Part shown: positions 2,834 through 21,747 of the stretch, one piece after another
How positions within the stretch are numbered: position 1 is the stretch's first letter
Layout of the letters: the number at the start of each line of letters is the position of its first letter
Source: a virus
Virus record (IMG/VR): IMGVR_UViG_3300022927_000134
Coordinates: 1 to 22,559 of that record
Length of the DNA: 22,559 nt
Reading direction: 5' to 3' (one strand)
Notes under the pieces: model-generated
Databases searched by the model: none
What the model was told of the DNA's origin: nothing
Seen by the model: the letters and a program-made list of their open reading frames with translations, nothing else
Program-made: the position numbers and the translations under genes

Positions 2834-2842
2834 ATTATAACA
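2834..2842 (-). promoter_or_regulatory. Extended -10 promoter before short chaperone
   Basis: The minus strand reads TGTTATAAT, a perfect extended -10 element, immediately after the stop codon of the long chaperone gene. A start about seven bases downstream would leave a leader of roughly 24 bases that contains the AAAGGAG ribosome site. No -35 box is seen at normal spacing. The 13 bases TATAATAGTATAG starting here are identical to those of the box before the tail-tube gene (4303-4308). Confidence 0.6.
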
Positions 2843-2847
2843 TAGTC

Positions 2848-3543
2848 CTAGTCTTTTTTACGTTCAATTTTTTCGTATGAAAGACCCATACCAATACCAA
2901 ACCCAGCCTTTTGAGCGTTAAGTCCTCGTAGTGCTGTAATGTCGTTTGGATTATCTGTTGCTCCACCGCTGAATACTCTGGCTTTCATTTCTTCCCAAGC
3001 ATTGTTTTTGCCAGATTGTTCATCAAGATCCACGCCTTGCATAGCTGCGAGGAATTTCTTTTCATTGTAGTCTAAATCTCTTATTTTTTCAATAACAGCA
3101 ATAAGTTCTGCCATTGTCATAGAAAGTTCAAGATCTTCAAAATTTTTCCAAGCACCAATAATAAAAGCTTCTGCTTCCAGAGAGGCTAGGTCTAGATTTT
3201 CCCACGTATTCTTGTCGCTCTGGTCCTTAGCTTGTTTGTCTACATCGTCTTCATCAGGATTAATTTTAATGCCAGCACATATTTCTAAAATCTTATACAC
3301 TGTAGGCAAATCAACAAGCTCTTCTAGATCTTCTTTGCTAGCAACTATTGGATAATACTGCTTCATACAAACAGTAGCACATTCTGACAAAACAGCTATA
3401 GACTGCTCATCATTTGCAGTAAATTTAATAAGTTGAAATATGTCCATAAACTCTCTCATGAACTTAATTTTTAAAGGACCCAGATTAACCAAAGTTCCAT
3501 CAATAAAAACTACAGAATCTGTTTCATAAACTTTTTTAGCCAT
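2848..3543 (-). CDS. Long tail-assembly chaperone (two-domain, GT-like)
   Basis: This 231-residue protein has two parts. Residues 1-97 are paralogous to the short protein encoded downstream. Residues about 113-231 form a second domain with a helical FEDLELSMTMAELIAVIEK segment, LAAMQGVDLDE and a C-terminal GIGMGLSYEKIE, resembling the second domain of siphophage tail-assembly chaperones. It sits between the tail-tube gene and the tape-measure gene, as expected. The long form is encoded in one continuous frame, so no frameshift is needed to make it. There is no Shine-Dalgarno sequence. The ATG lies exactly six bases after a TGCTACAAT box, consistent with a leaderless mRNA. A strong terminator lies just upstream. 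Function is inferred from position and domain resemblance. Confidence 0.78.
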   Translation of the reverse strand: MAKKVYETDSVVFIDGTLVNLGPLKIKFMREFMDIFQLIKFTANDEQSIAVLSECATVCMKQYYPIVASKEDLEELVDLPTVYKILEICAGIKINPDEDDVDKQAKDQSDKNTWENLDLASLEAEAFIIGAWKNFEDLELSMTMAELIAVIEKIRDLDYNEKKFLAAMQGVDLDEQSGKNNAWEEMKARVFSGGATDNPNDITALRGLNAQKAGFGIGMGLSYEKIERKKD

Positions 3544-3549
3544 TACTAT

Positions 3550-3558
3550 ATTGTAGCA
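3550..3558 (-). promoter_or_regulatory. Extended -10, leaderless start of long chaperone
   Basis: The minus strand reads TGCTACAAT, then ATAGTA, then the ATG at 3543. A transcript starting seven bases after the box would begin on the A of the ATG. The gene has no Shine-Dalgarno sequence. The element sits immediately after the tail-tube terminator, so it would restart transcription for the chaperone and tape-measure genes. Confidence 0.6.
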
Positions 3559-3596
3559 AAAGAAATACCGCCCAGGGTGGTTGCCCTGGGCGGTAT
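3557..3596 (-). terminator. Intrinsic terminator after tail-tube gene
   Basis: A perfect 13-bp inverted repeat (3565-3577 and 3584-3596, arm ATACCGCCCAGGG) encloses a six-base loop. On the minus strand it is followed by TTTCTTTTGC, a U-rich run. The plus-strand side lacks a U-run, so the terminator acts on minus-strand transcription. It lies 14 bases past the tail-tube stop codon. Confidence 0.9.
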
Positions 3597-3609
3597 AACT
3601 TAATCGTTA

Positions 3610-4251
3610 CTATGAAACGAGAGAGATAGTTCTGTCAACGATCTTACCATATGAAGCTGTGTCATTTGGAAGAAGGCGGAAAGAAACCTCGAACATAGTT
3701 GGCTCGTCACGCTTAGCGGATACTGTAACATTCTCAATTGAGAGTGCACGGTAAGCAACGTATACGCGCTCGATGGATTCTGATGCTGCACAGTCACCTG
3801 TACCTGGACCAACTGCAACTAGACCACGCTCTACTGGACATTCACCGATGTCACCAGCACTCATGTTGAGAACTGGGTTACCATTGAATGGACCAGAAGC
3901 TGCTGTAGCTAGATCTGAGTCCTGACCAGCGATTGAGTAGAGAAGGTTCTCTAGAGTTGCCTCAGCGAATGCAGTGTTAAGGTTAACCTGCATACCCTGC
4001 TTGTAAAGCTTGGCAACGTCGAGCACCTGGTCTACCTGGACTTCACCGAAGTCTGGCTGGAAAACGATCTCAAGACCGTTCATGGTGTATCCAACATTAC
4101 GGAAGTCAGTGTCATCGGTAAGAGTGTCTTTGTAGCTCTCATCCTCAACAACTGTAGGAAGGTCGGTGTCAGCCAACTCTCCTGCTTCGTAAGTGAATAG
4201 CGCAGCAGCACCCACGATAATCTGTGAGCTATTACCACGAGTATATGCCAT
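3610..4251 (-). CDS. Major tail protein (tail tube)
   Basis: This 213-residue protein is the likely tail-tube subunit. The evidence is its position (after the tail terminator, before chaperones and tape measure), its size, its beta-rich polar composition, and the dedicated terminator behind it, which suits an abundant protein. The frame can be opened at a GTG at 4260, but that GTG lies inside the Shine-Dalgarno sequence GAGGTG (4258-4263). The ATG at 4251, six bases after it, is the better start and gives MAYTRGNSSQ. A TATAAT box lies at 4303-4308. No catalytic motif or membrane segment is seen. No tail-sheath gene is nearby, so a non-contractile tail is inferred. Identification rests on context more than on a signature motif. 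Confidence 0.85.
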   Translation of the reverse strand: MAYTRGNSSQIIVGAAALFTYEAGELADTDLPTVVEDESYKDTLTDDTDFRNVGYTMNGLEIVFQPDFGEVQVDQVLDVAKLYKQGMQVNLNTAFAEATLENLLYSIAGQDSDLATAASGPFNGNPVLNMSAGDIGECPVERGLVAVGPGTGDCAASESIERVYVAYRALSIENVTVSAKRDEPTMFEVSFRLLPNDTASYGKIVDRTISLVS

Positions 4252-4302
4252 AATTTTCACCTCATTTTCTATAATGAAATATGGGCGTGTTTCCTCTATA
4301 CT

Positions 4303-4308
4303 ATTATA
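4303..4308 (-). promoter_or_regulatory. TATAAT -10 box before tail-tube gene
   Basis: The minus strand reads TATAATAGTATAG, the same 13 bases as at the short-chaperone promoter, inside a weak ctata/tatag dyad. It lacks the upstream TG of the extended form, and no -35 box is obvious. A transcript from here would carry a leader of about 45 bases ending in the GAGGTG ribosome site. It begins within ten bases of the upstream gene's stop. Confidence 0.5.
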
Positions 4309-4316
4309 TAGACTAT

Positions 4317-4865
4317 TTATGAATAATCTTTGACGTGGTAGTCATAGTTAATAATTATTTTACTAGCCATATAAGTTCTTGATGTATTTTGAGAAACAAT
4401 ATCTCTAGATTCTTCTAGTGAAAATATGTTAAGTTCATGAAAAAATACTGGCTTAAATGTTCTTTGCATTCTTCCAGTGCCAAGGACAACAAGACCTTGT
4501 TGGTTTACCTTGGTTGAGATCCATGCGTTTATCTCCTGAGCAGACTCATCTTTACGATCTAGAAGATCATGAATAACCTGTATAACCTCAAACAATGCTT
4601 CTGGATCACTATTCATCTTATACAAATAAATCATTAGCTGCTCACATTTAATGTGGGGGAAAGCTTTACGATTTAATCTGAACATTCTGTCATATACGCC
4701 AAACACATCTTTTGCCATTGCTGGGTTAGCTTTAACTAACGCATTGATATCTGTTGGCATTGTTGGAAATAGCTTAAACCCTCCGTTAAAACGCCCTGGA
4801 AGCCTTTCTACGACCTTTTCAGCAAGGTATTCATTAATTAGTGCTGGTAAATATGTAATTGCCAT
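4317..4865 (-). CDS. Probable tail terminator protein
   Basis: This is a 182-residue protein starting MAITYLPALINEYLAE. It lies between the gp10-like connector and the tail-tube gene, the usual slot for the tail terminator that caps the finished tail tube and joins it to the head. It has no strong sequence signature that I can name. A GTG at 4871 could add two residues. I prefer the ATG at 4865 because the stop of the upstream gene (TGA at 4868-4870) is almost contiguous with it, and AGGAG and AGGTGA lie just upstream. This is a tightly coupled neck operon. Function is inferred from gene order. Confidence 0.65.
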   Translation of the reverse strand: MAITYLPALINEYLAEKVVERLPGRFNGGFKLFPTMPTDINALVKANPAMAKDVFGVYDRMFRLNRKAFPHIKCEQLMIYLYKMNSDPEALFEVIQVIHDLLDRKDESAQEINAWISTKVNQQGLVVLGTGRMQRTFKPVFFHELNIFSLEESRDIVSQNTSRTYMASKIIINYDYHVKDYS

Positions 4866-4867
4866 TA

Positions 4868-5545: not shown

Positions 5546-5988
5546 ACGTCAAACTCCTGATTCTCTGACTTTTTTAGAATCAGGTTATAGTATTCAACCT
5601 TACCAAAAGGACCAACGAAAGGTCTTTGTGTTGCTACCTCAAACAATGTTGAAAGACCATCTCGTGGCCCACCAAACTCTTTATAAATTTCGTTGCATTC
5701 TCTATCACGAATATTAGTGATTACGATGTTACTAATAGCAAAATTTTCATCAAATGAGCTTACTCTAACATCTTCTTTTATACGTGCAGAAAGAATAGAA
5801 TCAGTAGTTATATTAATATTAATAGTTAGCTCTTCTTTTTCTTCTGCCCCAGCATAAACAAAGTTGCCAACAATGACTCTATCAAATGTCCATGATTTTA
5901 AAACATTTCCATATGGGCTTTGATCTATGATTGGATAGTAGATCTCTGCTGTCATTGGGAAGCGGAAGTCTTTGGTGTCACAATTCAT
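5542..5988 (-). CDS. Probable head-tail stopper / joining protein
   Basis: This is a 148-residue protein starting MNCDTKDFRFPMTAEIYY. It is encoded directly after the adaptor candidate, where phages place the stopper (head completion) protein that closes the DNA channel. The composition is beta-rich with alternating hydrophobic residues (ELTININITTDSILSARIKE). I see no unambiguous family motif. Its start shares one base with the upstream stop (TAATG), with GGAG seven bases ahead. Its own stop overlaps the next start (ATGA). The function is inferred from position only. Confidence 0.55.
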   Translation of the reverse strand: MNCDTKDFRFPMTAEIYYPIIDQSPYGNVLKSWTFDRVIVGNFVYAGAEEKEELTININITTDSILSARIKEDVRVSSFDENFAISNIVITNIRDRECNEIYKEFGGPRDGLSTLFEVATQRPFVGPFGKVEYYNLILKKSENQEFDV

Positions 5989-6878: not shown

Positions 6879-7173
6879 ACTCCTCGGCTATTTCTTTAGG
6901 AGTAGCCTCTCTGACATGATCACGAGAAAGCCACTTCTCTACGCTCTCTCTTGGCACTATGTTGTATCCTTTATGAACAGAACCAACACCTTCCCAGCTA
7001 ACATTTTTACTAGAAAATATAGCTACCATATTATATTCTTTTTTAACTTTTTCTTTTTTATTTTTTTCTTTTACTACTGGGATCAAATTGCCTGTACCAA
7101 TTACTCCATCATTTATTTGTTTAACTGCTTCCGTATGTTTTTGAAAGTTTTTAGGAATTGGATTCTTAGACAT
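6868..7173 (-). CDS. Small protein of the capsid-neck junction
   Basis: This 101-residue protein has unknown function. The first half contains a lysine-glutamate run near residues 35-46, encoded by an A-rich tract. The second half (from MVAIFSSKNVSW to the end) looks like a compact folded unit ending in HVREATPKEIAEEYGL, a kind of tail seen in small proteins beside phage capsid genes. It could be a minor head component, but this is a guess. The ATG has AGGAGGA at 7178-7184. A TGATATAAT box is 16 bases upstream, directly after the capsid terminator, so this gene probably leads a new transcript. Its end overlaps the adaptor's first possible start. Confidence 0.7.
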   Translation of the reverse strand: MSKNPIPKNFQKHTEAVKQINDGVIGTGNLIPVVKEKNKKEKVKKEYNMVAIFSSKNVSWEGVGSVHKGYNIVPRESVEKWLSRDHVREATPKEIAEEYGL

Positions 7174-7189
7174 TTTTTCCTCCTAGTCA

Positions 7190-7198
7190 ATTATATCA
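7190..7198 (-). promoter_or_regulatory. Extended -10 promoter restarting after capsid terminator
   Basis: The minus strand reads TGATATAAT, a perfect extended -10 box, nine bases downstream of the U-run of the capsid terminator. It is followed by TGACT and the AGGAGGA ribosome site of the next gene. It would drive the neck genes from 7173 leftward. No -35 box is visible. Confidence 0.6.
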
Positions 7199-7206
7199 GT
7201 TAATTA

Positions 7207-7238
7207 GAAAAGGGGGCAGAGGTTTCCCCCTGCCCCCT
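7207..7238 (-). terminator. Intrinsic terminator after major capsid gene
   Basis: A nine-bp perfect stem (7211-7219 and 7230-7238, arm AGGGGGCAG on the minus strand) extends inward by one G-T and two G-C pairs to a GAAA tetraloop. It is followed on the minus strand by TTTT and AT-rich sequence. It lies 22 bases past the capsid stop codon and acts on minus-strand transcription. Confidence 0.88.
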
Positions 7239-7259: not shown

Positions 7260-8345
7260 TTAGCTGTCAGCAGCTGCATCAACGAATGCAACAGCGTCTT
7301 CCTCTTCCCACTGAATACCGAAACGTACGAATACGGTGTATTCAATGGTGTCCTTCTTAGCAACGTATTCACGGTTTACAGTGATGTCGCGCTGGAAGCC
7401 CCAAACACGGTTGCTTGGGAATGTGAGGTCAACATAACCATCTGGGTAGTATGGAACCTCCATGACAGGAATACCGAGGACACGTGTGGTACGAGCCTCA
7501 CCGATGACCTGGTCAGTACCAGCAAGGTAGGAGTTACGGTACTGCTCAGTCCAGATGTTCTGGCTGTCAGTTCCGTTAGCCTTTACGATACCAGCGAAGG
7601 CATCTGTACCTGCATAGAACTTTAGACCACTCTTGAGTGCACGGTACTTACGTGGCAATGAGTTGATTACACCCTGAAGAACTTCTGGGGTAAATGCATT
7701 GTCAGTAACAGTTGCAACGTGCTCGTGTGCGTCACCGTTGGTGGTTACTCTGTTGACAAAACCTTCCAAGATGGAAAGGAAGTCACCAGTGGAACCGTCA
7801 CCATTAATAGCTAGATCTTCAATGTCATTTGCAAAAGCATTTGTCATGAGACGAACTAGGTGATCCTCTAGTGCAGCACCCTCAATGTTGTCTTCGAGTG
7901 CTTCAGCTGAAACTTCCCAGTCAAGGCGGATCTTCTTTGTAGTAAGCTCAACCTTGCTGAATGTAGCACCAGCGTTTGTGTATGTTGCGTCGGCCTGGTT
8001 GGCGGCACGAATTACACGCTCTCCAACGTTAACTTTTTCAAGTTCCATTGTGTTAGCTCGCATAGTAACGCGACGACCATCTTTGGCGAGAACAGTTCCA
8101 TCCCAAACGTAGTCGATAAAACGACGTGCTTGTTCAGGACGTAGGATACCACTACCTGCCTCACCTGAAGGGTTTACAGCGTTTGGACCTGTTGTTAGAC
8201 CAAACTCGGCGGTTGGGATGTTTCCGAGGGTGCTAGCACCTGGATCAGTTACACCACCAATGCCACCAGAAGCGAAGCCACCTTCACCGTTTACGGTTGG
8301 GTTGCCATCACCATCTGGATAGTTCTTGATAATCTCTTCCGACAT
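7260..8345 (-). CDS. Major capsid protein (HK97 fold)
   Basis: This 361-residue protein is the shell subunit. It follows the protease-scaffold gene, has the size of HK97-fold capsid proteins, and shows segments expected of them: PEQARRFIDYVWDGTVL near residue 70, KKIRLDWEVSAEALEDN, a long helix (EDHLVRLMTNAFANDIEDLAINGDG) and a C-terminal VFVRFGIQWEEEDAVAFVD. The first 65 or so residues are glycine-rich and low in structure, and could be the part removed by the protease. The start is firm: AGGAGGT at 8351-8357 lies five bases before the ATG. No TATAAT box is seen immediately upstream, so its mRNA probably begins at the protease gene or inside it. A strong terminator follows. Confidence 0.92.
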   Translation of the reverse strand: MSEEIIKNYPDGDGNPTVNGEGGFASGGIGGVTDPGASTLGNIPTAEFGLTTGPNAVNPSGEAGSGILRPEQARRFIDYVWDGTVLAKDGRRVTMRANTMELEKVNVGERVIRAANQADATYTNAGATFSKVELTTKKIRLDWEVSAEALEDNIEGAALEDHLVRLMTNAFANDIEDLAINGDGSTGDFLSILEGFVNRVTTNGDAHEHVATVTDNAFTPEVLQGVINSLPRKYRALKSGLKFYAGTDAFAGIVKANGTDSQNIWTEQYRNSYLAGTDQVIGEARTTRVLGIPVMEVPYYPDGYVDLTFPSNRVWGFQRDITVNREYVAKKDTIEYTVFVRFGIQWEEEDAVAFVDAAADS

Positions 8346-8370: not shown

Positions 8371-8910
8371 TTAATTAAATAAGTCGGCAGTTTTGAGGAA
8401 ACGACCGCCCCATAGGGATTTTTGAACCATTTCTGGCTCATCCTGTACGATCTCGCCTAGATCGCCAGACTTGCGAAAAGCTGTGTCAGCCTCAACGGCA
8501 TCAACACGCTTTCCAATGTTTTCCTGAGTCTCAGCAACTTCTGCTTTAACTGAGTCAACTGATTTCTTTAGTGCGTCAACCTGCTCGTGTAGAGCTTTTA
8601 CGGTTTCTGCTAGATCGCTAAAGGCTGATGTAATAGTATTCTGAATTTCAGAAACAACATTTTCTGTAGTGTCTGATTTAGATACCTCTTCAACCTCTAC
8701 AACCTCATCGGCTGCTTCGGCCTCAACTTCTACAGCTGCTTCTACATCAACTGCTTCTTCAGCTACCTCGTCAGACTTGATGACATCTGCATCAGCATCT
8801 GCCTTCTCTGTCTCGGCAACCTCTGTTTCGGCATCTGCCTCTGGAGCGACCTCTACCTCTTCAACAACTTCGTCAGATTTCTCTACGATTTCTTCTGTTG
8901 TGTCAGTCAT
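8371..8910 (-). CDS. Nested scaffold protein (internal start within protease gene)
   Basis: Inside the protease-scaffold frame, an ATG at 8910 has the ribosome site AAAGGAGGT seven bases upstream (8918-8926), the strongest such site in the window. The in-frame product has 179 residues. It has a very acidic, Val/Ala/Glu-rich, low-complexity first half, a predicted coiled coil (QNTITSAFSDLAETVKALHE onward, about residues 90-140), and a C-terminal LWGGRFLKTADLFN. These are scaffold features. Phage lambda makes its scaffold Nu3 in the same way from inside protease gene C. The internal start is read directly from the sequence. That it is used, and that the product directs capsid assembly, is inferred. 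Confidence 0.75.
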   Translation of the reverse strand: MTDTTEEIVEKSDEVVEEVEVAPEADAETEVAETEKADADADVIKSDEVAEEAVDVEAAVEVEAEAADEVVEVEEVSKSDTTENVVSEIQNTITSAFSDLAETVKALHEQVDALKKSVDSVKAEVAETQENIGKRVDAVEADTAFRKSGDLGEIVQDEPEMVQKSLWGGRFLKTADLFN

Positions 8911-9666
8911 AGGACTTACCTCCTTTGTTATCTCAGTGTTAATGCCTTTAGCACTATCAACTAAGAACTTTACCATGTCTGCTTTTTCACTGTCTGATTT
9001 CTCAACGAATCCAATATTTTCCATTACCTCGCCAGAAATAGGGCTGACTTCAGCATCGCTTTCTGAAAGAATAACAATGTCTGATTGTGAATCCCAGAAC
9101 ACATTCTCAAGAACAGTGTCTTCGTCAATACCCTTTACGACATCAACGCCATCCACCTTTTCAACAGAAATGATACTAGCAAACTGGTTTGCTGGGGAAT
9201 CGACCAAAGAAAGCTCAATCAAGTCGTACTCTTTAATAACACGAATCTTGTTATCCATTTCTGAATCATACCCATCATCCCATTTTAGCATCTTTCCGCC
9301 AATTGAGAAACCTGTATAGGTTCCATCTAGAACCTTTTCCCATGCATCTTGTGCACCCTTTGAAACATATGCAGAAACATAAACTCCCTGATAGAATTTC
9401 TTTGTTTCTGGGTCAAAATATTTTTCTTCTTTAAAGTCTACCATTTTACCAACAGCTGATGGCTGGTGCATTTCACGAATGTTACCACGGAACTTAGAGA
9501 AAGCCTTCATGCTGGCTTCAGATGTAACAATGTCATTTTGACGATCTACGTTGTCAAGGGTAGCAAAACCAGAGACGATGCGTCTCTCCTGATCAACTTT
9601 ACTGAACGGCATAGAGAGGCGAACACTGTCGCCCTCTGTATCCCAATGAGCTTTAAACATAGTCAT
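8371..9666 (-). CDS. Capsid maturation protease fused to scaffold
   Basis: This 431-residue protein (from the ATG at 9666) joins two functions. Residues about 1-175 are a prohead serine protease of the HK97/XkdF type. It has GFATLDNVDRQNDIVTSEA, a histidine in REMHQPSAVG (about residue 67), the probable catalytic serine in GFSIGGK (about residue 121), and IELSLVDSPAN. After a linker, residues 253-431 are an acidic, coiled-coil scaffold. It should cleave scaffold and capsid during maturation. The frame could start at the ATG at 9684, giving 437 residues. That start has AAAGGG with no spacing, and a TATAAT box lies inside its first codons, so I prefer 9666, nine bases after the box. It lies between portal and capsid genes. 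Confidence 0.88.
   Translation of the reverse strand: MTMFKAHWDTEGDSVRLSMPFSKVDQERRIVSGFATLDNVDRQNDIVTSEASMKAFSKFRGNIREMHQPSAVGKMVDFKEEKYFDPETKKFYQGVYVSAYVSKGAQDAWEKVLDGTYTGFSIGGKMLKWDDGYDSEMDNKIRVIKEYDLIELSLVDSPANQFASIISVEKVDGVDVVKGIDEDTVLENVFWDSQSDIVILSESDAEVSPISGEVMENIGFVEKSDSEKADMVKFLVDSAKGINTEITKEVSPMTDTTEEIVEKSDEVVEEVEVAPEADAETEVAETEKADADADVIKSDEVAEEAVDVEAAVEVEAEAADEVVEVEEVSKSDTTENVVSEIQNTITSAFSDLAETVKALHEQVDALKKSVDSVKAEVAETQENIGKRVDAVEADTAFRKSGDLGEIVQDEPEMVQKSLWGGRFLKTADLFN
8918..8926 (-). promoter_or_regulatory. Internal ribosome-binding site for scaffold
   Basis: The minus strand reads AAAGGAGGT, a near-perfect match to the 16S rRNA 3' end, seven bases before the in-frame ATG at 8910. 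Within a coding frame (Lys-Glu-Val) such a match with correct spacing and start codon is unlikely by chance. Confidence 0.8.
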
Positions 9667-9675: not shown

Positions 9676-9681
9676 ATTATA
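9676..9681 (-). promoter_or_regulatory. TATAAT box before the protease gene
   Basis: The minus strand reads GATGTATAATAGAGATAG, with TATAAT nine bases before the ATG at 9666. Transcription seven bases after the box would leave a leader of about three bases. It lacks a properly spaced TG. It lies between the portal stop and the protease start and may drive protease, scaffold and capsid. Confidence 0.5.
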
Positions 9682-9714
9682 CATCCCTTTTATGCAATTG
9701 TTATAAAAAGGTAA

Positions 9715-11316
9715 TTATTGGCTTGCTGGACCTTCACCCTGTGCATTACGACCATCTACTGTACCAGGACTATCTGCCTGATTGTTTGATCGCTCTGTAT
9801 CCCTTGCTCTATTCTGAGCAGTGTTTGCTCTCATGTCAGTTGCCTGACGAGATGTCATCTGAAATGGTGCGTCACCATCTGTTCTCTGCGGAAGACCAAG
9901 CTGCTGCCTTGCTTCGTTAGGAGTAATTACTTGTGTTTTAACATAACGTTCAATAATTTGTGATTGTGCAATCTCATCTGTAAGCGTAAGCTCGTTAAAC
10001 TTAAAATCAATAATGTCTGTACGTTCTTTGATAATTCTATTGATCATCTTTTCCAGATTACGTTGTGCTGGTCTTGACACCTGCTCTTTGAATGTACGAT
10101 CTTGTGCGAGAGCTGCAGCAATAGCTGTTCTGTCGCCACCACCAATCTTAGAAAGTGGAACCTGGTGGGCAATAAGAATGTCATCCCTGTTTTGTAAACG
10201 ATATTCTTTGAAGGATGCTTCTTGAACTCCATTCTCAATTGGCTCCATGTTGAATTCAACCTTGTTGCCATCTGAATCTCCTGGGAGTGGAATATATAGG
10301 CTTCGGTGTGACTGCCCCTTAAGGTTAGTCTGAAGAAATCTAAATAGCTTATCTTCTGCGTCTGAAGACAGCTTTGCACCCTTAAGAGTAACAATGTAAC
10401 GTGGCACTGCTTTGTTACCAAAGTAGTCAATGTTGTATTGTGAAGCTAGCTGATCTCCTTGCAAAGATGTAATAGCTGACATGATGTCTGGAACACCATA
10501 GAATGTGTTTAGTGGTGAATATTCTTTATAGTGAAGAATTTCGTTTGGTCTTGGATCTGTTGTCATTGGGTTTGGGTTCTTTGCCCCGAAGTTTCTGAAG
10601 TAAACAACCTTCTGTCCAATTATCTGTACGTACCCGTCACGCAATCTGCGCACACGCATTGTAGTTGATGGGATGTGGCCGACATAGCCGATCTCTCCGT
10701 TGATAGTTCTACCAATTTCTAAATACCCGTTTCCTGTCGCTTGTACATCTGTGTAAAATTTAATTAGTGTTTGTGTAAATGAGTCATCATCATTTAGGTT
10801 TTCTAGCCAGTCTCTTAGCTCTACCTTTGCTCTTTCAATTCTTTTACGAGCACGGGCTGTTGCTTCTTGATCTGAGTTGTCATCAAGACGTAGCATTGTT
10901 CTCTTAGATGTTTCAAAATCATATCCAAGCCCAACAATGTTTTCTACCTTAGCATCAATAGCTGCGTGGTTTGCAAAAGAGGTGTCGTAATAATTTGCAA
11001 GCTCATAGAGATTCCAAGGTGGTGTAATAACGTCAAACATTCCGTAGCCATTACGGAAAACATCGCCAGGATTAATCTCTTTAGACTTTGCGCCTTCAAT
11101 GCCAGATGGTGTAGATTTCGCTGCCTCAAGATATCCATTGCTTGGTGGCATTGATGCTACCTTTGCTACCCTGCTTGTGCGACGCTTAAAGTTTGTGTCT
11201 AAGCCACTGAATGTTTTTAGATCATTCCAGTCTTTACTGAATGGATCTTGTGCTTTAAACAAGTCTTCTTCTTGTGGCATCTCTGGCATAGATGCACCAA
11301 CAATGTATTCAGCCAT
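9715..11316 (-). CDS. Portal protein
   Basis: This 533-residue protein forms the dodecameric ring through which DNA enters and leaves the head. It shows portal-family features: ANYYDTSFANHAAIDAKVEN near the N-terminus, TGNGYLEIGR near residue 191, VGHIPSTTMRVRR, ILHYKEYSPLNTFYGVPDI near residue 265, YFGNKAVPRYIV, and a helical C-terminal region ending in a polar, disordered tail (TERSNNQADSPGTVDG). The start shares one base with the upstream stop (TAATG) and follows GAGG. This places it in an operon with the 122-residue protein. The next gene downstream is the protease, as in HK97-type head modules. Confidence 0.94.
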   Translation of the reverse strand: MAEYIVGASMPEMPQEEDLFKAQDPFSKDWNDLKTFSGLDTNFKRRTSRVAKVASMPPSNGYLEAAKSTPSGIEGAKSKEINPGDVFRNGYGMFDVITPPWNLYELANYYDTSFANHAAIDAKVENIVGLGYDFETSKRTMLRLDDNSDQEATARARKRIERAKVELRDWLENLNDDDSFTQTLIKFYTDVQATGNGYLEIGRTINGEIGYVGHIPSTTMRVRRLRDGYVQIIGQKVVYFRNFGAKNPNPMTTDPRPNEILHYKEYSPLNTFYGVPDIMSAITSLQGDQLASQYNIDYFGNKAVPRYIVTLKGAKLSSDAEDKLFRFLQTNLKGQSHRSLYIPLPGDSDGNKVEFNMEPIENGVQEASFKEYRLQNRDDILIAHQVPLSKIGGGDRTAIAAALAQDRTFKEQVSRPAQRNLEKMINRIIKERTDIIDFKFNELTLTDEIAQSQIIERYVKTQVITPNEARQQLGLPQRTDGDAPFQMTSRQATDMRANTAQNRARDTERSNNQADSPGTVDGRNAQGEGPASQ

Positions 11317-11690: not shown

Positions 11691-11699
11691 ATTATAACA
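11691..11699 (-). promoter_or_regulatory. Extended -10, leaderless start before 122-aa gene and portal
   Basis: The minus strand reads TGTTATAAT, then TGAACC, then the ATG at 11684. The six-base gap predicts a transcript beginning at the A of the start codon. A second TATAAT lies just upstream in AGTATAATG, next to the stop of the large jelly-roll gene. Confidence 0.65.
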
Positions 11700-14700: not shown

Positions 14701-15580
14701 AATAATATTCATTGTCAACATTTATTCCAGATAATTCTGTAGAAGATACCCCAAAAGAGTTTTCCATAAACTCTGAAGACCATTGTCCAGCAGATAATCC
14801 GCAGATATAAGATGTAGTAGCTATGGCCTCATATGAATAGAATTTAATCAATGGCTTTAGTTTTAAAACTGGAGTAATAAACAGGTTTCCAAACTGATAG
14901 AAAAACTCTATACTGCCAGAGCCAATAGACTCCTCTACCTCAAACGTGTTTTCTGTAGCGTTTACTACATAATAAATGTGATACTGGCTTATAAGATTTG
15001 GAACTATATATGATGAGCTAAGCTTAATTTTGTCGCCATCGCTTAGTCCATGTGCATTGTATGTAATTTCTGTGAATCCTTCTGACGGATCTTCATCATT
15101 AGTAAAATCAGCAAATGGAATAGAAAGCGAAACTGTTTCTGGCAAAGGTAATGTTTTAGAAACATAGTACCACTGATTAAGTTCAAAATCTATATCTGAT
15201 ACTTCTGCAACCTCTTCGCTTTCACCATAAACATATCCTATATCCAATGACCTTAGATTAGATGATGCTGGATTAAAATAAAAGCCTAAAGTAATACTTT
15301 CTAAATCAGGATTAACATATGAGCTTAAAGGATTTTGATCTGTAATAGAATATTCTAAACTAGAAGAATTAATTTGATAAACATTTTCCCCAACAATCGG
15401 AGCATCAGATTCAGATTCAGACACAGAGCATCCATCTAAAGTATAAATATCTGTATCAGAAATATCACGATTTGCAGCTGGTATAAGTTGAATATAGTCA
15501 ACAGCTTCATCAAAAGGCCATAAGCCTATGGGATGCTCGCCAAAAACTTTTTCGGCATAAAGATTAGAAGGGATTGACAT
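11702..15580 (-). CDS. Large virion protein with LamG/jelly-roll-like domains
   Basis: At 1292 residues this is the largest complete protein here. It begins with a YAEKVFGEHPIGLWPFDE motif, seen in phage structural proteins with laminin-G/concanavalin-like folds. Segments about 355-435 (HTVEFWLRISPDTDEPKRIF, then an INGEKVIDL strand), 610-850 and 1110-1290 (FYVNGKRVADPTISINDW) look like separate jelly-roll domains, which often bind carbohydrate. A beta-domain near 170-226 (NAHGLSDGDKIKL, YYVVNATENTFEV) recurs near 650-715 (NSHDLQTYDVIRF, YYVTKIDDDTFSI). No signal peptide, membrane segment or enzyme motif is visible. It has no Shine-Dalgarno sequence and starts seven bases after a TGATAAAAT box. 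It is probably a host-surface-binding or head/tail decoration protein. Its site on the virion is unknown. Confidence 0.75.
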   Translation of the reverse strand: MSIPSNLYAEKVFGEHPIGLWPFDEAVDYIQLIPAANRDISDTDIYTLDGCSVSESESDAPIVGENVYQINSSSLEYSITDQNPLSSYVNPDLESITLGFYFNPASSNLRSLDIGYVYGESEEVAEVSDIDFELNQWYYVSKTLPLPETVSLSIPFADFTNDEDPSEGFTEITYNAHGLSDGDKIKLSSSYIVPNLISQYHIYYVVNATENTFEVEESIGSGSIEFFYQFGNLFITPVLKLKPLIKFYSYEAIATTSYICGLSAGQWSSEFMENSFGVSSTELSGINVDNEYYYVEGAAYGFQDLSAYYLVRENKLLAKNTNMPIVYGSSNLTSLIPERFGGPSMIFPGLGFLNEDGRYKTHTVEFWLRISPDTDEPKRIFGPINSSDGLYVDGPFITLKVGESVQSHYIGEWYRPMLINLLTFRNGSSLIINGEKVIDLSFNTSELDLPSKTSLSGKDQDWLGFYSYEDIFQFEIDCVAIYSYRVPTAVSKRRFVYGQAIDFPYSISSAYSGKSFPVDYTFANYNNNYIYPDMVKWRSGVSENISSENNVLQPPKYSLPSLVFNNKTSDAWYRALKSNAYQGISLKPDDSWIDTDGYLFFDSPNVLNQKTAGFYGLFRPEIGMTGTQSLFVLENKVTGNYLDVSLATKSIDIASIDGTVLTSNSHDLQTYDVIRFEGSLPSEIIAGIEYYVTKIDDDTFSISNIKDGDAISISSIAEDSVEGIYHVIQYSLTFNSNEEVIYQTPAIALGTTIVAGLNFIEFAKYFGGNVSTLIGNRRQLKLYVGGNKNFSNTFSGNIYRVGFSTLRNIDKLDYLFSSNGTPFLRYQFEGGSDTSYDDDEFTGITIDAGYTYEEYVDDILSHTASYTLVVKSFFGERYLDIATSSYWQDYVPLTYLAKNTFGLNEEISYKLDFIQYNSDTTVPLFFDDEDNYDTSSSSIKTYVTFQTIASGPTKTEEQFVNTQKLGRNKTIVPGENWRTTKYEVVNQSLIYLPQDIGLDELAMVVHMDMSSSGIIKNPIRVRSMSLSGKSFNASKKNPIGTKRGVSMYPYNRYGIYYDYNKQTPFVIYKDSTPHLYLTKHSGIELAGDFTDSNRGLSLLINEEKTAQYKLSTIQFSARFTRDDLVTEPVEIMHLETNFATERIKIWIEPAYPSNKRFRIFATNNNDERIRSLYFYVNGKRVADPTISINDWNMISIGLETLLDLDGISGKLNVVGPIMVNNISYYALNNLQQAQLEVLSATEYVGIDPEVIYGIFTGTNKVIVGDDIASGPKNIQYSVINNISVQSATIKPV

Positions 15581-15587: not shown

Positions 15588-15596
15588 ATTTTATCA
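15588..15596 (-). promoter_or_regulatory. Extended -10, near-leaderless start of jelly-roll gene
   Basis: The minus strand reads TGATAAAAT, then AGACTAT, then the ATG at 15580. The gap of seven bases predicts a leader of zero or one base. No Shine-Dalgarno sequence is present. The box starts within a few bases of the stop of the upstream short fibre-associated gene. Confidence 0.5.
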
Positions 15597-16931: not shown

Positions 16932-17147
16932 CTAAGCAACTGGTTCAATCCATACATCGCCAGCAGCCAATGTATAAGTTCCATCAGGATCAACAGAACC
17001 AACATAGATTGTGTTACCAGGATCGTCATCAGTATTTACGATCTTAGCTGTTGTATCAATAATTTGCCAAGCACCAACGGTAGAATTGTAGACATACCCA
17101 TTGTATGTGTCACCGTTACTTGGGCTACTTGGAAAATCTAATGCCAT
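16932..17147 (-). CDS. Small fibre-associated protein
   Basis: This 71-residue protein starts MALDFPSSPSNGDTYNGYVY, followed by a V-x-x-W-Q segment. Such P-x-x-G-x-x-Y...W modules recur in phage fibres, where they occur as domains of larger proteins. Here one stands alone, followed by a strand-rich tail (GTYTLAAGDVWIEPV). The ATG has AGAGGA at 17155-17160, seven bases ahead. A TATAAT box is 23 bases upstream. The stop is nine bases before the adhesin ATG. Function is unknown beyond the fibre context. Confidence 0.7.
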   Translation of the reverse strand: MALDFPSSPSNGDTYNGYVYNSTVGAWQIIDTTAKIVNTDDDPGNTIYVGSVDPDGTYTLAAGDVWIEPVA

Positions 17148-17170: not shown

Positions 17171-17176
17171 ATTATA
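17171..17176 (-). promoter_or_regulatory. TATAAT box before 71-aa fibre gene
   Basis: The minus strand reads AGTGTATAATG right before the stop-to-start gap ends. The TG lies directly against the box, not one base away, so it is not a true extended form. A transcript from here would have a leader of about 17 bases containing the AGAGGA site, and could carry the adhesin genes downstream. Confidence 0.45.
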
Positions 17177-17565: not shown

Positions 17566-17593
17566 ATTATTCCTCCAAACAAAGACTAACTCA

Positions 17594-17602
17594 ATTATAA
17601 CA
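17594..17602 (-). promoter_or_regulatory. Extended -10 promoter before collagen-like fibre
   Basis: The minus strand reads TGTTATAAT, then TTGAGTTAG, right after the glycosyltransferase stop codon. A transcript from here would have a leader of about 22 bases with the GGAGGA ribosome site before the TTG start. No -35 box is visible. Confidence 0.6.
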
Positions 17603-17605
17603 TGT

Positions 17606-18676
17606 CTATTTATTTATAGTCTTGTTAGCGTAATATGCAATATTATTTTTTAGTCTTTCATCATTTGGATTTAGCTCTACTGCTTTAGATCCATATTTTA
17701 GAGCATCGTCATATTTACCCAGCGAATATGACGCTATTGCTGCAAGATCATATGGACGATCTCCCCAAGCCTCGTCTTCGCAAAGATACTCTAAAGGCTT
17801 TTCTGTAATATCTAAAGCTTTAACAGAATACTCCAAGCATTCTTCCCACATGCCGTTTTCATAACAATACGTTGCAAGATCAACTAGTGGCTCTCTTCTA
17901 TTTGGTGTTTCTTTTACTGCTTTTATAAACCATTCTTCACGTTCCTTGCCGTAGCTACATTTAGCAATATAACGCATAGAAGCAGAACGCTCTGGTGGCC
18001 AGGTAGCTTTAGGCAAAGACAGATGTCTGATAAATTCTTTTTTAGCCTCATCTAACTGATAATGAAAAAATAGCTCTCTAGCATAATAATGAGTATTACG
18101 ATCATCTGATGGATCTTCTTCTACAGCAAGTTTTAATAGTGGCATGTATTGTCCACGTGATTTAGAATGATCTGGATGGTGATGTATTTCTAAATCTACC
18201 CAGCTTTGTTTCTCTTCAATTCTGTCTGTAGTTAATACTTCGTGAACTGGATGCTTCCAGCGGTATCCAAATCTAGAATGAATCTTATCTCCACCATACT
18301 GCAATCCAGGAATAGTTTCTTCTTCATCTTTCCAAGACCATGTGTACTGATACCGTGGACGTGTAGCTCCTTCTTTATGAGCTTGTTCAAGCTTTTCTTT
18401 CCAACCAGGCAACAGCACTTCATCCATATCGAGTGCAATACAATAGTCAATATCTTCTGGTAGCAATGCTAGAGCAGCATTGCGAGCATTATCAAAACGC
18501 CAAGGTCTAACAAGAATGGAAGCAACCTCTATGCCATATTTAGCAGCGGTAAGTAAAGTATCATCTGTACTACCAGTATCAGCAATCAGAAGATAATCGG
18601 CATCTTTAGCTGATTCATACCAACGTTCAATAAACTGCTCTTCATTCAAAGCAATAGTATAAACCGCAACTCTCAT
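17606..18676 (-). CDS. Family 2 glycosyltransferase with C-terminal TPR-like repeats
   Basis: This 356-residue protein transfers a sugar from a nucleotide-sugar donor. The N-terminal domain shows family 2 hallmarks: YTIALNEEQFIERW, DTGSTDDT, and the metal-binding DxD-type motif in IALDMDEVLLPGW (about residues 79-91), followed by a KIHSRFGYRWKHPVHEVL segment. The last 150 residues form tetratricopeptide-like helices (ATYCYENGMWEECLEYSVKA, then a repeat of the form YDDALKYGSKAVELNPND). It sits among fibre genes, so it may glycosylate fibre, tail or capsid proteins, as reported for some mycobacteriophages, or alter host surface glycans. The acceptor is unknown. No signal peptide or membrane segment is seen. 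There is no Shine-Dalgarno sequence; the ATG is six bases after TGCTACACT. Confidence 0.9.
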   Translation of the reverse strand: MRVAVYTIALNEEQFIERWYESAKDADYLLIADTGSTDDTLLTAAKYGIEVASILVRPWRFDNARNAALALLPEDIDYCIALDMDEVLLPGWKEKLEQAHKEGATRPRYQYTWSWKDEEETIPGLQYGGDKIHSRFGYRWKHPVHEVLTTDRIEEKQSWVDLEIHHHPDHSKSRGQYMPLLKLAVEEDPSDDRNTHYYARELFFHYQLDEAKKEFIRHLSLPKATWPPERSASMRYIAKCSYGKEREEWFIKAVKETPNRREPLVDLATYCYENGMWEECLEYSVKALDITEKPLEYLCEDEAWGDRPYDLAAIASYSLGKYDDALKYGSKAVELNPNDERLKNNIAYYANKTINK

Positions 18677-18682
18677 AAAACA

Positions 18683-18691
18683 AGTGTAGCA
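18683..18691 (-). promoter_or_regulatory. Extended -10, leaderless start of glycosyltransferase
   Basis: The minus strand reads TGCTACACT, then TGTTTT, then the ATG at 18676. The box is weaker (TACACT) but keeps the extended TG and the exact six-base gap found at three other genes that lack a ribosome site. Confidence 0.5.
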
Positions 18692-18698
18692 GATAGGG

Positions 18699-19421
18699 CT
18701 ATGAGAATGTTCCAGCTATCTGAACAGCAGAAGCATCAATAGTTCCACTAGTTGACTGAACACTAACATTTAAGCTATCTCCAGCATCAAAAGACAATGG
18801 CGTTCCAAAAGTGGTTACGGAAGCTCCAGCACCAGTTCTAGATGCATAATAACTTGAACCCTGACCAGTACCGTTCTTAACTAACTCAACAGTTAAAGTT
18901 CCAGTAGCAGAACTGCCAAGAAAAACAGACACACGAGTTACCTGTCCAGCAAAAGACATAGGAGCTTCTGTAATAGCTGAACCATTACCAAGTGCATAGT
19001 TCTGACCAACAGTTGGAGTAGCAGAGGATCTTTCACCAGTAATAGTAAACTTTTGAGGTAGATTAGCACCAACACCACCATACGACGCTATCTCAATCCA
19101 TTGCGAAGAATCAACATCGTTATAATATAAATAATATTTACCGTTTGCTGAATCGTACCAAATATCTCCAGAACTTGGTGATCCAGGTGCTGTGTCTGAT
19201 ATTGTTACGCCACCACCGCCACCGCCAGATACTGCGGATGGAATCCAGTTACCAGAACTATAGGTTAAAACTTCTCCATTAGAAGCTCCAGAAAGATCTA
19301 CATCAGACAAATCTCCGATAGACGATGCCTCTGTAATAACATTATTACCATTTACGGAAGCGGTAGCACCTTCGACAATAAGACCATTTTTGATCTTAAA
19401 GTCTTTGTTATTTGTAGCCAA
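18699..19421 (-). CDS. Mosaic tail-fibre protein C
   Basis: This 240-residue protein is built from modules found elsewhere in the window. Residues 1-32 (KDFKIKNGLIVEGATASVNG) match the N-terminus of the 372-residue fibre encoded upstream. A glycine linker is followed by a GDIWYDSANGKYYLYYNDVD/SSQWIEI unit shared with the collagen-like fibre at 17179-17565. The last 105 residues (VGQNYALGNG ... GSSATGTLTVELVKNG ... TPLSFDAGDSLNV) are homologous to the C-terminus of the fibre cut by the right edge. It is likely a virion-attached fibre whose C-terminal beta domain contacts receptor or trimerises. The start is a TTG at 19421, with GGAGGT (19430-19435) eight bases ahead. There is no ATG nearby in frame. 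Confidence 0.8.
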   Translation of the reverse strand: MATNNKDFKIKNGLIVEGATASVNGNNVITEASSIGDLSDVDLSGASNGEVLTYSSGNWIPSAVSGGGGGGVTISDTAPGSPSSGDIWYDSANGKYYLYYNDVDSSQWIEIASYGGVGANLPQKFTITGERSSATPTVGQNYALGNGSAITEAPMSFAGQVTRVSVFLGSSATGTLTVELVKNGTGQGSSYYASRTGAGASVTTFGTPLSFDAGDSLNVSVQSTSGTIDASAVQIAGTFS

Positions 19422-19443
19422 GTGCTACCACCTCCATAAATTT

Positions 19444-20562
19444 CTATGCTATAAGTGTACCAAATACTTTTACAGTAGTTGTTGCTGTTCCAGCAGTATA
19501 AAGAATCTCAACGTCTGTTCCATTAATACCAGCTGTGATTTCTCCAAGACTTCCGTTGGTTCCGACAACTGCATATTCTGTGATTGCAATGTTGTCTGAT
19601 GTGTCTAGCGTTACTAGTATTTCTGATACCTCGGTGTGAGTTGAGTATGCTGCTTTTACTACAAACTTTGCTGCTCTGTAATCTGCTTTAGCCCATGCAT
19701 ACACTGCTGTTTGGCTTGTGTCAGACAATGTTGCTGTAGCTGCTACCTGTAGTGCAACGCTATTCAGTTCAACTGATGTGAATGATCTGTCTGTGTCGTC
19801 TACAGCTGACTGTGCTCTTGCATCAGTAAAGTAAAGATTAGTGCTGCCCTCTGTCAAATCGTCAGTTGTGTCTGGGACTTCAGAATCAACATACTGCTTT
19901 GTAGCTGCATGTAGGTTAGCAGTTGGGTCTGCTGAAAGGGTGAGAAACCCAGTCATAGTGTCACCAGACTTAGCAACCTTTTCTCCAATAGAAGTAGTAA
20001 TTGTTGATGCAAAGTTTTCATCATCATTAATTGCTGCTGCAAGCTCATCAAGTGTGTCAAGTAGTGCTGGTGCACCACTAACAAGATCAGATACTGCTGT
20101 TGCAATTCTATCTGTTACTGTGTTACCAGATGTTCCATCTACAGTTGCATCACCAATCAAATCATCTGTATATGAGTTTGCATTTGATTCAGCAGTTGAT
20201 GCAGATCCTGCTGCGTCATAAGCAGAAGATGTGGCATCCAATGCTCTCTGATTTGTAAAGTAAAGATTTGTTGAACCTTCTGTTAGATCATCAGTTGTTG
20301 AAATTGGTGAAGAACCACTAAATGAGATAGAGTTAGCTTCATCATTATAAGTGATGCTAATGTTTGTGTGTGTACCATTGCCAATTGCTGTTGCTACAGC
20401 ATCAACTGCTAGCTCATCAGCAAAGTAAAGGTTAGTGCTACCCTGATCAAGATCATCAGTAGTACTACCAGTTGTAATAACATCCTCGCCATTAACAGTA
20501 GCTGTCGTACCTTCAACGACGAGGCCATTCTTGACCCTAAAGTCTTTATCTACAGTTGCCAT
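19444..20562 (-). CDS. Mosaic tail-fibre protein B with TDDL repeats
   Basis: This 372-residue fibre has an N-terminal attachment segment (KDFRVKNGLVVEGTTATVNG) shared with the next gene. It has three copies of a TTDDLTEGSTNLYFTDARA-type stalk unit near residues 35-50, 90-106 and 232-250. A widely distributed fibre segment (LDTLDELAAAINDDENFAST, DTMTGFLTLSADP, ATKQYVDSEV) follows near 168-228. The C-terminal domain (YRAAKFVV, EILVTLDTSDNIAITEYAVV, GSLGEI) is of a type common in aquatic phage structural proteins and recurs in the 148-residue protein encoded upstream. The ATG has AAGGAG at 20572-20577, overlapping the end of the upstream gene. The fibre role is well supported; receptor and site are unknown. 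Confidence 0.85.
   Translation of the reverse strand: MATVDKDFRVKNGLVVEGTTATVNGEDVITTGSTTDDLDQGSTNLYFADELAVDAVATAIGNGTHTNISITYNDEANSISFSGSSPISTTDDLTEGSTNLYFTNQRALDATSSAYDAAGSASTAESNANSYTDDLIGDATVDGTSGNTVTDRIATAVSDLVSGAPALLDTLDELAAAINDDENFASTITTSIGEKVAKSGDTMTGFLTLSADPTANLHAATKQYVDSEVPDTTDDLTEGSTNLYFTDARAQSAVDDTDRSFTSVELNSVALQVAATATLSDTSQTAVYAWAKADYRAAKFVVKAAYSTHTEVSEILVTLDTSDNIAITEYAVVGTNGSLGEITAGINGTDVEILYTAGTATTTVKVFGTLIA
19813..20460 (-). repeat. Three dispersed TDDL/GSTNLYF stalk repeats
   Basis: Within fibre B, three related units occur at 20413-20460, 20245-20295 and 19813-19869. They encode T-T-D-D-L-x-x-G-S-T-N-L-Y-F with varying ends. The latter two are nearly identical in protein and similar in DNA, so they could recombine with each other. 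Confidence 0.8.
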
Positions 20563-20579
20563 TTTCTTTTTCTCCTTAG

Positions 20580-21026
20580 CTATGCCTTAAGTCCCATGCG
20601 AGCGTATCGCACAGTGACTGGCCTAACGGATGGAATTGGTGTCAAAATTAATTGAACATCATCTCCAGCCTTAGAGACACTAACGGTTCCCATATCCCCA
20701 TCGTTGTCTACAATGCCATACTGAGCAACATTTACATCATCATTATCGATTAGAATTGTTAACTCAGTTGCATAATAATTATTGTCACCATCTGTTGTTT
20801 TAGAAATAGAAACAAGGTATTTAACCATTCTCCATTCATCTGCAACAAAACTGTCAATAACTGTTGTGTTTTCTATTCCAGCAATTTCGTGTTCGTTATT
20901 ACCAGATGATCCGAGATCAGTAGAATTCGCTGCAAGTGTATCAATAAGATCAACAAAGTCGTCTCCGTCTGGCCTATCACCAGTTTCAAAGAGTGCTTTC
21001 AGTGCAGCAAGATCTAGCTTGGACAT
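20580..21026 (-). CDS. Structural protein with fibre-type C-terminal domain
   Basis: This 148-residue protein starts MSKLDLAALKALFETGDRPD and continues FVDLIDTL, a pattern found at the N-terminus of phage structural proteins and fibres. The C-terminal 95 residues (EWRMVKYLVSISKTTDG, ATELTILIDNDDVNVAQYGI, VTVRYARMGL) are homologous to the end of the fibre encoded next. It may be a short fibre or the attachment partner of that fibre. There is no Shine-Dalgarno sequence. The ATG at 21026 is exactly six bases after TGTTATAAT, so a leaderless mRNA is predicted. The downstream fibre gene follows after 17 bases and has its own ribosome site. Confidence 0.75.
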   Translation of the reverse strand: MSKLDLAALKALFETGDRPDGDDFVDLIDTLAANSTDLGSSGNNEHEIAGIENTTVIDSFVADEWRMVKYLVSISKTTDGDNNYYATELTILIDNDDVNVAQYGIVDNDGDMGTVSVSKAGDDVQLILTPIPSVRPVTVRYARMGLKA

Positions 21027-21032
21027 ATATCC

Positions 21033-21041
21033 ATTATAACA
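21033..21041 (-). promoter_or_regulatory. Extended -10, leaderless start of 148-aa structural gene
   Basis: The minus strand reads TGTTATAAT, then GGATAT, then the ATG at 21026. The six-base gap predicts initiation on the start codon itself. It overlaps the 12-bp palindrome AACATTAATGTT. Confidence 0.65.
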
Positions 21042-21049
21042 TTAATGTT
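21038..21049. repeat. 12-bp perfect palindrome overlapping a promoter
   Basis: AACATTAATGTT equals its own reverse complement. It overlaps the TGTT of the extended -10 box before the 148-residue gene, where a bound dimeric regulator could act. Chance occurrence in AT-rich DNA cannot be excluded. Confidence 0.4.
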
Positions 21050-21053
21050 TAAT

Positions 21054-21365
21054 TTAAAGAATATAGTTATTAAATCCGATAACAGCCACACCAATAGGTG
21101 GTGGGTTTTCTGGACTATAAGCTGAAAAACCTTTATTAAGAAACTTAACCCTAAAAGGCAACTGTTCTTTAATAATAGTGTTTACCTTAATATCGTTAAT
21201 TCTAGTATTTGGATAATCTTTAGCTTTAATGTTTTTAGACGATGGAGATGCATCAGTAATCTTTACAGAAATATCTTTATCAGATACAGTAGCTCTTCTA
21301 GAATCTTTTTGAACAACAAAATCTAAAAAAAGATCACGCTGTTGAATAATTCTTGCGTTTGCCAT
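21054..21365 (-). CDS. Small protein in fibre cassette, function unknown
   Basis: This 103-residue protein starts MANARIIQQRDLFLDFVVQK. It has a basic first half with strand-like SVKITDASPSSKNIKAKDYP and a proline-rich end (SPENPPPIGVAVIGFNNYIL). I do not recognise a family. The ATG shares a base with the upstream stop (TAATG). No Shine-Dalgarno sequence is visible, so it is probably translated by coupling to the 117-residue gene before it. The two may form a pair of beta-rich baseplate or fibre-attachment proteins. Confidence 0.65.
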   Translation of the reverse strand: MANARIIQQRDLFLDFVVQKDSRRATVSDKDISVKITDASPSSKNIKAKDYPNTRINDIKVNTIIKEQLPFRVKFLNKGFSAYSPENPPPIGVAVIGFNNYIL

Positions 21366-21718
21366 TATTCAGTAACGTCTTCGATGATTACCATGCTACC
21401 CTGTGCAACAGTCCATACTCTTGTAAGATCAGATAGCTGAATATCAAAAACATCTCCAGTCTCTAGTAGCTCTGACTGTGCTGCGGTAAGAGAAACAGTA
21501 AATTCACCTGGATCATCATCTGGTTGTGCTTCTGGAGTAAGATTAACAATATCTGAACCATTACGTTCAATGTCCATGTTGATAGTCCAGTCTTCAATAG
21601 CTAAAGGTAGCTTATCATCATCAGTTACATAAACTTTAAAAGAAGCAGTATCTCCACGAACAACTGTCCATGTGACTTGTGGAGGGGTAACACCTACATT
21701 ATAATTTCTGGTAGCCAT
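21365..21718 (-). CDS. Beta-rich structural protein, BppU-like N-terminus candidate
   Basis: This 117-residue protein starts MATRNYNVGVTPPQVTWTVV. It reads like a single beta-sandwich (RGDTASFKVYVTDDDKLPLA, DWTINMDIERNGSD, FTVSLTAAQSELLETG, YDIQLSD-like), a layout seen in baseplate upper proteins of Gram-positive siphophages. That assignment is tentative. It starts eight bases after a TGGTATAAT box and has no Shine-Dalgarno sequence, so the predicted leader is about two bases. Its stop overlaps the next start. The neighbours suggest a role in anchoring fibres. Confidence 0.65.
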   Translation of the reverse strand: MATRNYNVGVTPPQVTWTVVRGDTASFKVYVTDDDKLPLAIEDWTINMDIERNGSDIVNLTPEAQPDDDPGEFTVSLTAAQSELLETGDVFDIQLSDLTRVWTVAQGSMVIIEDVTE

Positions 21719-21722
21719 GATA

Positions 21723-21747
21723 CTTAATTATACCACCTATAATTAAG
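21723..21747. repeat. 10-bp inverted repeat over promoter and stop codon
   Basis: The arms CTTAATTATA (21723-21732) and TATAATTAAG (21738-21747) are perfectly complementary around a five-base loop. One arm contains the TATAAT of the 117-residue gene's promoter and the other covers the stop of the collagen-like fibre. There is no U-run, so it is more like an operator or a weak hairpin than a terminator. Confidence 0.6.
21727..21735 (-). promoter_or_regulatory. Extended -10, near-leaderless start of 117-aa gene
   Basis: The minus strand reads TGGTATAAT, then TAAGTATC, then the ATG at 21718. The eight-base gap predicts a leader of about two bases. The box lies within a 10-bp inverted repeat. 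Confidence 0.55.

Follow-up and report, generated by a model that had tools for sequence, protein, structure and literature searches.

How does a tailed phage keep the short (G) and the long (GT) form of its tail assembly chaperone in proportion when the two come from separate genes, and what starts the expression of each? This question is raised by the IMG/VR virus record IMGVR_UViG_3300022927_000134, which in its whole length of 22,559 bases is the window analysed here and whose minus strand holds the structural module of a tailed phage. A first-pass annotation of this DNA had noticed promoter-like boxes before twelve gene starts. We suggest, with a probability of roughly 0.7, a model in which these boxes are extended -10 promoters without a -35 element that would give rise to two classes of starts, would divide the module into nested units and would drive a split chaperone pair from two promoters. 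The transcript start sites, the polymerase and the G:GT expression ratio in this model are inferred.

Boxes before gene starts

All twelve boxes are present on the minus strand, and nine of them have the TG extension, which is missing at the genes starting at 17147, 9666 and 4251. The spacings noted in the first-pass annotation also hold, with a gap of six bases to the start codon at four genes (21026, 18676, 11684 and 3543) and gaps of seven, eight and nine bases at 15580, 21718 and 9666, respectively. With genes named by the position of their start, the boxes are as follows.

3550-3558, minus strand: TG box TGCTACAAT, gap of 6 to the ATG of GT (3543); predicted leaderless promoter
2834-2842, minus strand: TG box TGTTATAAT, gap of 30 to the ATG of G (2803); Shine-Dalgarno sequence AAAGGAG in the leader
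11691-11699, minus strand: TG box TGTTATAAT, gap of 6 to the ATG of 11684; predicted leaderless
21033-21041, minus strand: TG box TGTTATAAT, gap of 6 to the ATG of 21026; predicted leaderless, likewise in the orthologues of the relatives G018, G019 and G002
18683-18691, minus strand: TG box TGCTACACT, gap of 6 to the ATG of the glycosyltransferase gene 18676; predicted leaderless
21727-21735, minus strand: TG box TGGTATAAT, gap of 8 to the ATG of 21718; the gap is 6 in three orthologues
15588-15596, minus strand: TG box TGATAAAAT, gap of 7 to the ATG of 15580
17594-17602, minus strand: TG box TGTTATAAT, gap of 28 to the TTG of 17565; Shine-Dalgarno sequence TGGAGG
7190-7198, minus strand: TG box TGATATAAT, gap of 16 to the ATG of 7173; Shine-Dalgarno sequence AGGAGG
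9676-9681, minus strand: TATAAT without TG, gap of 9 to the ATG of the protease gene 9666
17171-17176, minus strand: TATAAT without TG, gap of 23 to the ATG of 17147
4303-4308, minus strand: TATAAT without TG, gap of 51 to the ATG of the major tail protein gene 4251; Shine-Dalgarno sequence GAGGTG

The evidence for these boxes lies in their position and not in their number. In the comparison of motif frequencies that the first-pass annotation had proposed, the window shows no overall excess of TGNTANNNT (50 copies on the gene strand and 30 on the opposite strand, with ~39 expected), and we therefore rejected the total count as evidence. What is enriched is the placement before starts. TGNTANNNT lies exactly 6 bases before 4 of the 25 window starts, compared to 0.06 from shuffles; at a gap of 6-7 it precedes 5 of 25 starts, compared to ~0.1 from random positions on the same strand, other ATGs and the opposite strand (binomial P ~8e-8); and within 45 bases it precedes 10 of 25, while the shuffled mean is 1.8 and none of 5000 shuffles reached 10. 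On the gene strand, 10 copies fall in ~1.6 kb of intergenic DNA and 40 in ~20.9 kb of genic DNA. The stricter TGNTATAAT is found before 6 of the 25 starts (shuffled mean 0.06), and its six gene-strand copies are all intergenic. Because the TANNNT core by itself shows no enrichment in the 0-40 bases before starts (18 versus ~14-16), the signal consists of the TG extension together with exact placement. Consensus scans of the window gave no overall excess over shuffles, either for -35/-10 pairs (58 versus 55.9) or for terminators (13 versus 11.1), and from these scans we used only the two best-scoring terminators and conservation among orthologues.

Relatives of the window have the same geometry. 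Across 81 sequences, 62 of 866 first ATGs have the box at 6 bases and 50 have it at 7 bases (112 together), compared to 0.4 and 3.8 expected by scaling from internal ATGs, and TGNTATAAT is absent within 44 bases before the internal ATGs of these relatives. As the first-pass annotation had supposed, there are two modes of translation start, and each gene keeps its own mode: in this start survey, 47 of 50 orthologues of 3543 have the box at 6 bases and 50 of 53 orthologues of 11684 have it at 6-7 bases, while the orthologues of the major capsid, portal, tape measure and 4865 genes have a Shine-Dalgarno sequence and almost never a TG box. The few 6-base counts for 2803 in the survey are an artefact of contigs that break off ahead of G or inside it, for which GT was used instead. 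If the boxes were chance AT-rich matches close to starts, the unraised counts of bare TANNNT and of total TGNTANNNT would be expected; however, exact spacing and absence from internal ATGs argue against chance, and conservation among orthologues refutes it, so that we give it a negligible probability. The promoter-like boxes are confirmed as real.

In the boxes with TG, TGN directly adjoins TANNNT, which is the arrangement of an extended -10 promoter and needs no -35. In logos of 280 unique sites (128 leaderless and 152 leadered), which were chosen by the TG box and, in the case of the leadered ones, selected as TATAAT, an additional T is present two bases before TG in 92% of the leaderless and 85% of the leadered sites, and the site reads TnTGnTAtAnT. 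The leaderless -10 boxes often read TAtACT, and neither logo contains a -35. Thus, the lack of a -35 box, which the first-pass annotation had reported for all twelve starts, is upheld in the aggregate but not at the protease gene 9666, where a -35-like ATAACA (9699-9704) lies 17 bases from TATAAT with 10 of 12 consensus matches. This TG-less promoter (window 9676-9710 and orthologues) has a conserved upstream block that is T-rich and includes TAAC and TAAAAAG, with TAAAAnG between ATAACA and TATAAT; part of the block can form an inverted-repeat pairing in the window.

Two classes of promoter would follow from this geometry. In the leaderless class, a box 6-7 bases before an ATG that has no Shine-Dalgarno sequence, which is the pattern expected of leaderless mRNAs, would let the transcript begin on the start codon or next to it and would lead to leaderless translation. 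In the leadered class, the box lies ~15-50 bases upstream and the leader would contain the Shine-Dalgarno sequence. Together, the two classes would make the structural module a set of nested transcription units. The first-pass annotation had gone further and envisaged many short transcripts instead of a single operon. Strong terminators, which are consistent with this idea, are present at only two junctions of the window:

3565-3596, minus strand: intrinsic terminator with a 13-bp stem and a T-rich tail that reaches the TG of the GT promoter
7211-7238, minus strand: intrinsic terminator between the major capsid gene and the 7173 promoter, adjoining the upstream side of the latter

However, the genes starting at 21365, 11316, 6878, 5988, 5545 and 4865 overlap or abut their neighbour and have no promoter of their own. 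Because several genes are coupled in this way, read-through and nested transcripts appear as likely as separate short transcripts.

A chaperone pair in two genes

The two promoters of greatest interest precede the chaperone genes, which the first-pass annotation had not recognised as a split pair:

2848-3543, minus strand: GT tail assembly chaperone, 231 amino acids, with phrog_10504 (G) and phrog_10474 (T) fused in a single open frame
2492-2803, minus strand: G-only chaperone paralogue, phrog_10504 alone, 103 amino acids, 40% identical to the N-terminus of GT

The G and T domains lie between the major tail protein and the tape measure, as expected for a G/GT pair. The closest cultured phages are the Stanwilliamsviridae of Streptomyces (capsid ~42% identical), which have an identical gene order of portal, protease, capsid, major tail, chaperone and tape measure and which also have a terminator followed by a box at the chaperone junction. 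In Circinus, gp34 (annotated as a tail assembly chaperone) corresponds to the G domain and gp35 to the T domain, and both are situated between the major tail protein and the tape measure. Unlike the window, however, these phages have a single chaperone gene with a leader and a Shine-Dalgarno sequence, with T following on directly from G in the -1 frame in the three relatives read (Circinus, TunaTartare and Targaryen), and no second G gene was seen between chaperone and tape measure. Joined genes are annotated in TunaTartare (gp37) and in Rhodococcus phage Francesca (gp53). Among the 40 matches listed for GT in cultured phages, all align in two pieces except Francesca, in which only T matches.

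In the uncultured clade of the window, the pair is split without exception among the 76 dereplicated relatives that have both genes: a continuous GT of 223-242 amino acids is followed by 26-83 bases and then by a G of 102-110 amino acids. GT is one open frame in all 76, which speaks against a programmed frameshift, and a residual frameshift within GT finds no room, frame 0 being open throughout and frames 1 and 2 being full of stops. Half of the chaperone loci had been fetched with GT itself; the half fetched with the capsid gives the same split picture. Contigs that lack the pair break off ahead of G or inside it, except for two with irregular frames (L158 and L058). In L058 (5485-5946), a GT frame of just 153 amino acids precedes a normal G, reflecting a truncation or a sequencing error. 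The G sequences are monophyletic with a support of 100/100; because they form one such clade, the split appears to be old. The tree does not resolve the branching order of GT and the Streptomyces gene.

The two genes start in opposite ways. In the 76 relatives, GT never has a Shine-Dalgarno sequence; its start has a TG box at 6 bases in 67 and only the core box in five more, and a terminator-like hairpin lies at most 72 bases upstream in all 76, compared to 9 of 380 shuffles. By contrast, G has a Shine-Dalgarno sequence in 75 of 76 and a leadered TG box in 76 of 76, which reads TGnTATAAT in 73, while a terminator precedes it in only one.

In our model, the terminator before GT would block read-through from the major tail gene, and GT would begin leaderless from a -10 that is usually non-consensus (TATACT, TACAAT). 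G would begin from its own consensus TGnTATAAT, a stronger-looking promoter, with a Shine-Dalgarno leader and would also be readable from the GT transcript. Because G has its own promoter and also profits from GT read-through, it is predicted always to exceed GT. The G:GT ratio, which in lambda is 30:1 through frameshifting (PMC5009743), would then be set here by two promoters and two start modes in place of a frameshift. We lean slightly towards the broader proposal that the clade swapped the G/GT frameshift for a gene duplication, in which case transcription and start mode would determine the stoichiometry of the chaperones and, through it, the assembly of the tail. The two genes might instead be ordinary paralogues with separate roles whose promoters set no stoichiometry, as the one old G clade, well diverged from GT, could suggest. 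We regard this as rather unlikely, since the domain content is exactly G and G+T, the contrast in start mode and terminator is invariable in 76 of 76 relatives, and the frameshifting relatives produce the equivalent two products from one gene.

The polymerase and the host

The boxes are most likely read by a SigA-type RNA polymerase of the host, since the box is SigA-like, no sigma-70 domain was found in large relatives and leaderless SigA genes are common in actinobacteria, where leaderless mRNAs with SigA TANNNT promoters have been measured at 24% in Mycobacterium smegmatis (PMC6448022) and 33% in Corynebacterium glutamicum (PMC3890552). That the window comes from a phage of actinobacteria is suggested by WhiB, a family of Actinobacteria that is over cut-off in 10 of 13 large relatives and annotated in Circinus (gp136), and by an Actinomycetota bin in which a contig of 4.9 kb carries a capsid gene with 71% identity. 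This bin, which was the sole match in a scan of a genome collection for hosts, is weak evidence of the host. L083 (RGSB01000058.1) is a short phage contig inside an Actinomycetota genome bin.

The late promoters of phages T4 and SPO1 lack a -35 and share a box at late genes. A phage-encoded sigma factor or RNA polymerase would similarly explain the missing -35 and the one common box at late genes here. We consider it improbable, because the box is an ordinary SigA-like TGnTATAAT and because the sigma factor for which the first-pass annotation had proposed a search did not emerge from the large relatives: Pfam Sigma70_r2 was over cut-off in 0 of 17 and Sigma70_r4 in 0 of 13 (G018 included), most of these records being incomplete and single-subunit RNA polymerases not being searched for.

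Promoters of another kind are found elsewhere in the relatives. In G018 and G019, TATAAT with a perfect TTGACA is present outside the structural module, the limits of which were drawn by eye from the positions of the structural genes; these sites mostly have no TG, and several lie 6 bases before an ATG. By contrast, a perfect -35 accompanies 0 of 44 TATAAT sites in the structural modules of three relatives. Sites near 2663, 6637, 9973 and 39140 in G018 and near 6940 in G019 combine a TG-less TATAAT, 5-6 of the 6 TTGACA bases and a gap of 6 to the ATG. These named sites represent a second leaderless class, probably an early one. The two ends of G018 (L175-L181; 124,540 bases) are identical over 8,517 bases; this perfect direct repeat had not been reported for the record, and because of it the genome is probably complete.

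In phage T4, AsiA turns the polymerase to extended -10 promoters via sigma region 4. By analogy, a phage protein, most likely WhiB, might bind region 4 of SigA, block recognition of the -35 and favour extended -10 late promoters. The frequency of WhiB among the large relatives and its presence in Circinus fit this possibility, as do the binding of WhiB7 to region 4 of SigA, the part that reads the -35 (PMC3905903), and the difference between TTGACA/TATAAT outside the structural module and the 0 of 44 within. We nevertheless hold a modified polymerase to be doubtful: extended -10 promoters work without any such modification, TG boxes are found outside the structural module too, and WhiB7 itself activates promoters that bear a -35, with phage WhiB a candidate only.

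Several observations weigh against the model of extended -10 promoters read by host SigA and a split chaperone pair. In the Actinomycetota bin (~117 kb), TANNNT lies 6 bases before 11 of 86 of its own starts, compared to 0.7 expected, and these leaderless boxes lack the TG extension, which makes TG phage-specific and could mean a modified polymerase. Moreover, leaderless mRNAs are not always poorly translated and can be robust in mycobacteria (PMC8485053), so that low GT would come mainly from transcription; in M. smegmatis, one study inferred lower transcript production for leaderless constructs (PMC7148126). Finally, in a PDB fold search with G, the top match was the HK97 tail assembly chaperone 2ob9 at a level that is not significant (E 0.56, template modelling score 0.47), so that the likeness of the G fold to this chaperone is no more than suggestive. 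A PDB sequence search with the G profile gave no match. The AlphaFold2 models have a mean predicted local distance difference test score of 72 for G and of 67 for GT, the C-terminus of which is of low confidence.

The window and its place among known systems

The other structural genes of the window are listed below; the module also includes both chaperone genes and the beginning of the gene for the tape measure.

9715-11316, minus strand: portal
8371-9666, minus strand: protease
7260-8345, minus strand: major capsid protein
3610-4251, minus strand: protein that occupies the position of the major tail protein

Capsid relatives are encoded on at least 586 stretches of the viral collection. No Rfam element was found in the window at either threshold, and no tRNA gene was found. 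Within the tail-fibre region, the family 2 glycosyltransferase gene with leaderless geometry (17606-18676) encodes C-terminal TPR-like repeats. Several tail-fibre-like genes in 18699-22558 have similar N-termini or collagen-like GPT/GTD repeats (17179, 18699, 19444 and 21743).

As in the SigA leaderless promoters of actinobacteria (PMC6448022, PMC3890552), TANNNT lies ~6-7 bases before the ATG, a Shine-Dalgarno sequence is missing and the -35 is weak or absent. However, the phage boxes mostly add TG, often with a T two bases before it, and are found at fixed virion genes. Circinus, which has WhiB, also has some starts with the box 6 bases before the ATG (gp21, gp24 and gp29). The chaperone pair resembles lambda G/GT in that a short G and a longer G+T lie between the major tail protein and the tape measure with an excess of G expected, but differs from it in having two separate genes, two promoters and no frameshift (PMC5009743). 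We found no description of split chaperone pairs in the literature searched. Thus, leaderless extended -10 promoters would be of a known kind, whereas a split, oppositely started chaperone pair that replaces a frameshift appears new relative to the literature searched. For T4-like phages, a tail-chaperone mechanism other than frameshifting has been reported (Vladimirov et al. 2022, as cited in PMC12859696), and the novelty of the split pair is, therefore, not absolute.

The boxes would provide a clean set of leaderless promoters for uncultured actinobacteria, and the model links phage WhiB to a promoter switch that can be tested. Among phages with long tails, the G/GT frameshift is described as broadly conserved (PMC5009743). 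A clade without the frameshift, next to sister phages that keep it, would represent a natural experiment on its purpose. Should two promoters serve equally well, it would be the stoichiometry of the chaperones that is the selected trait.

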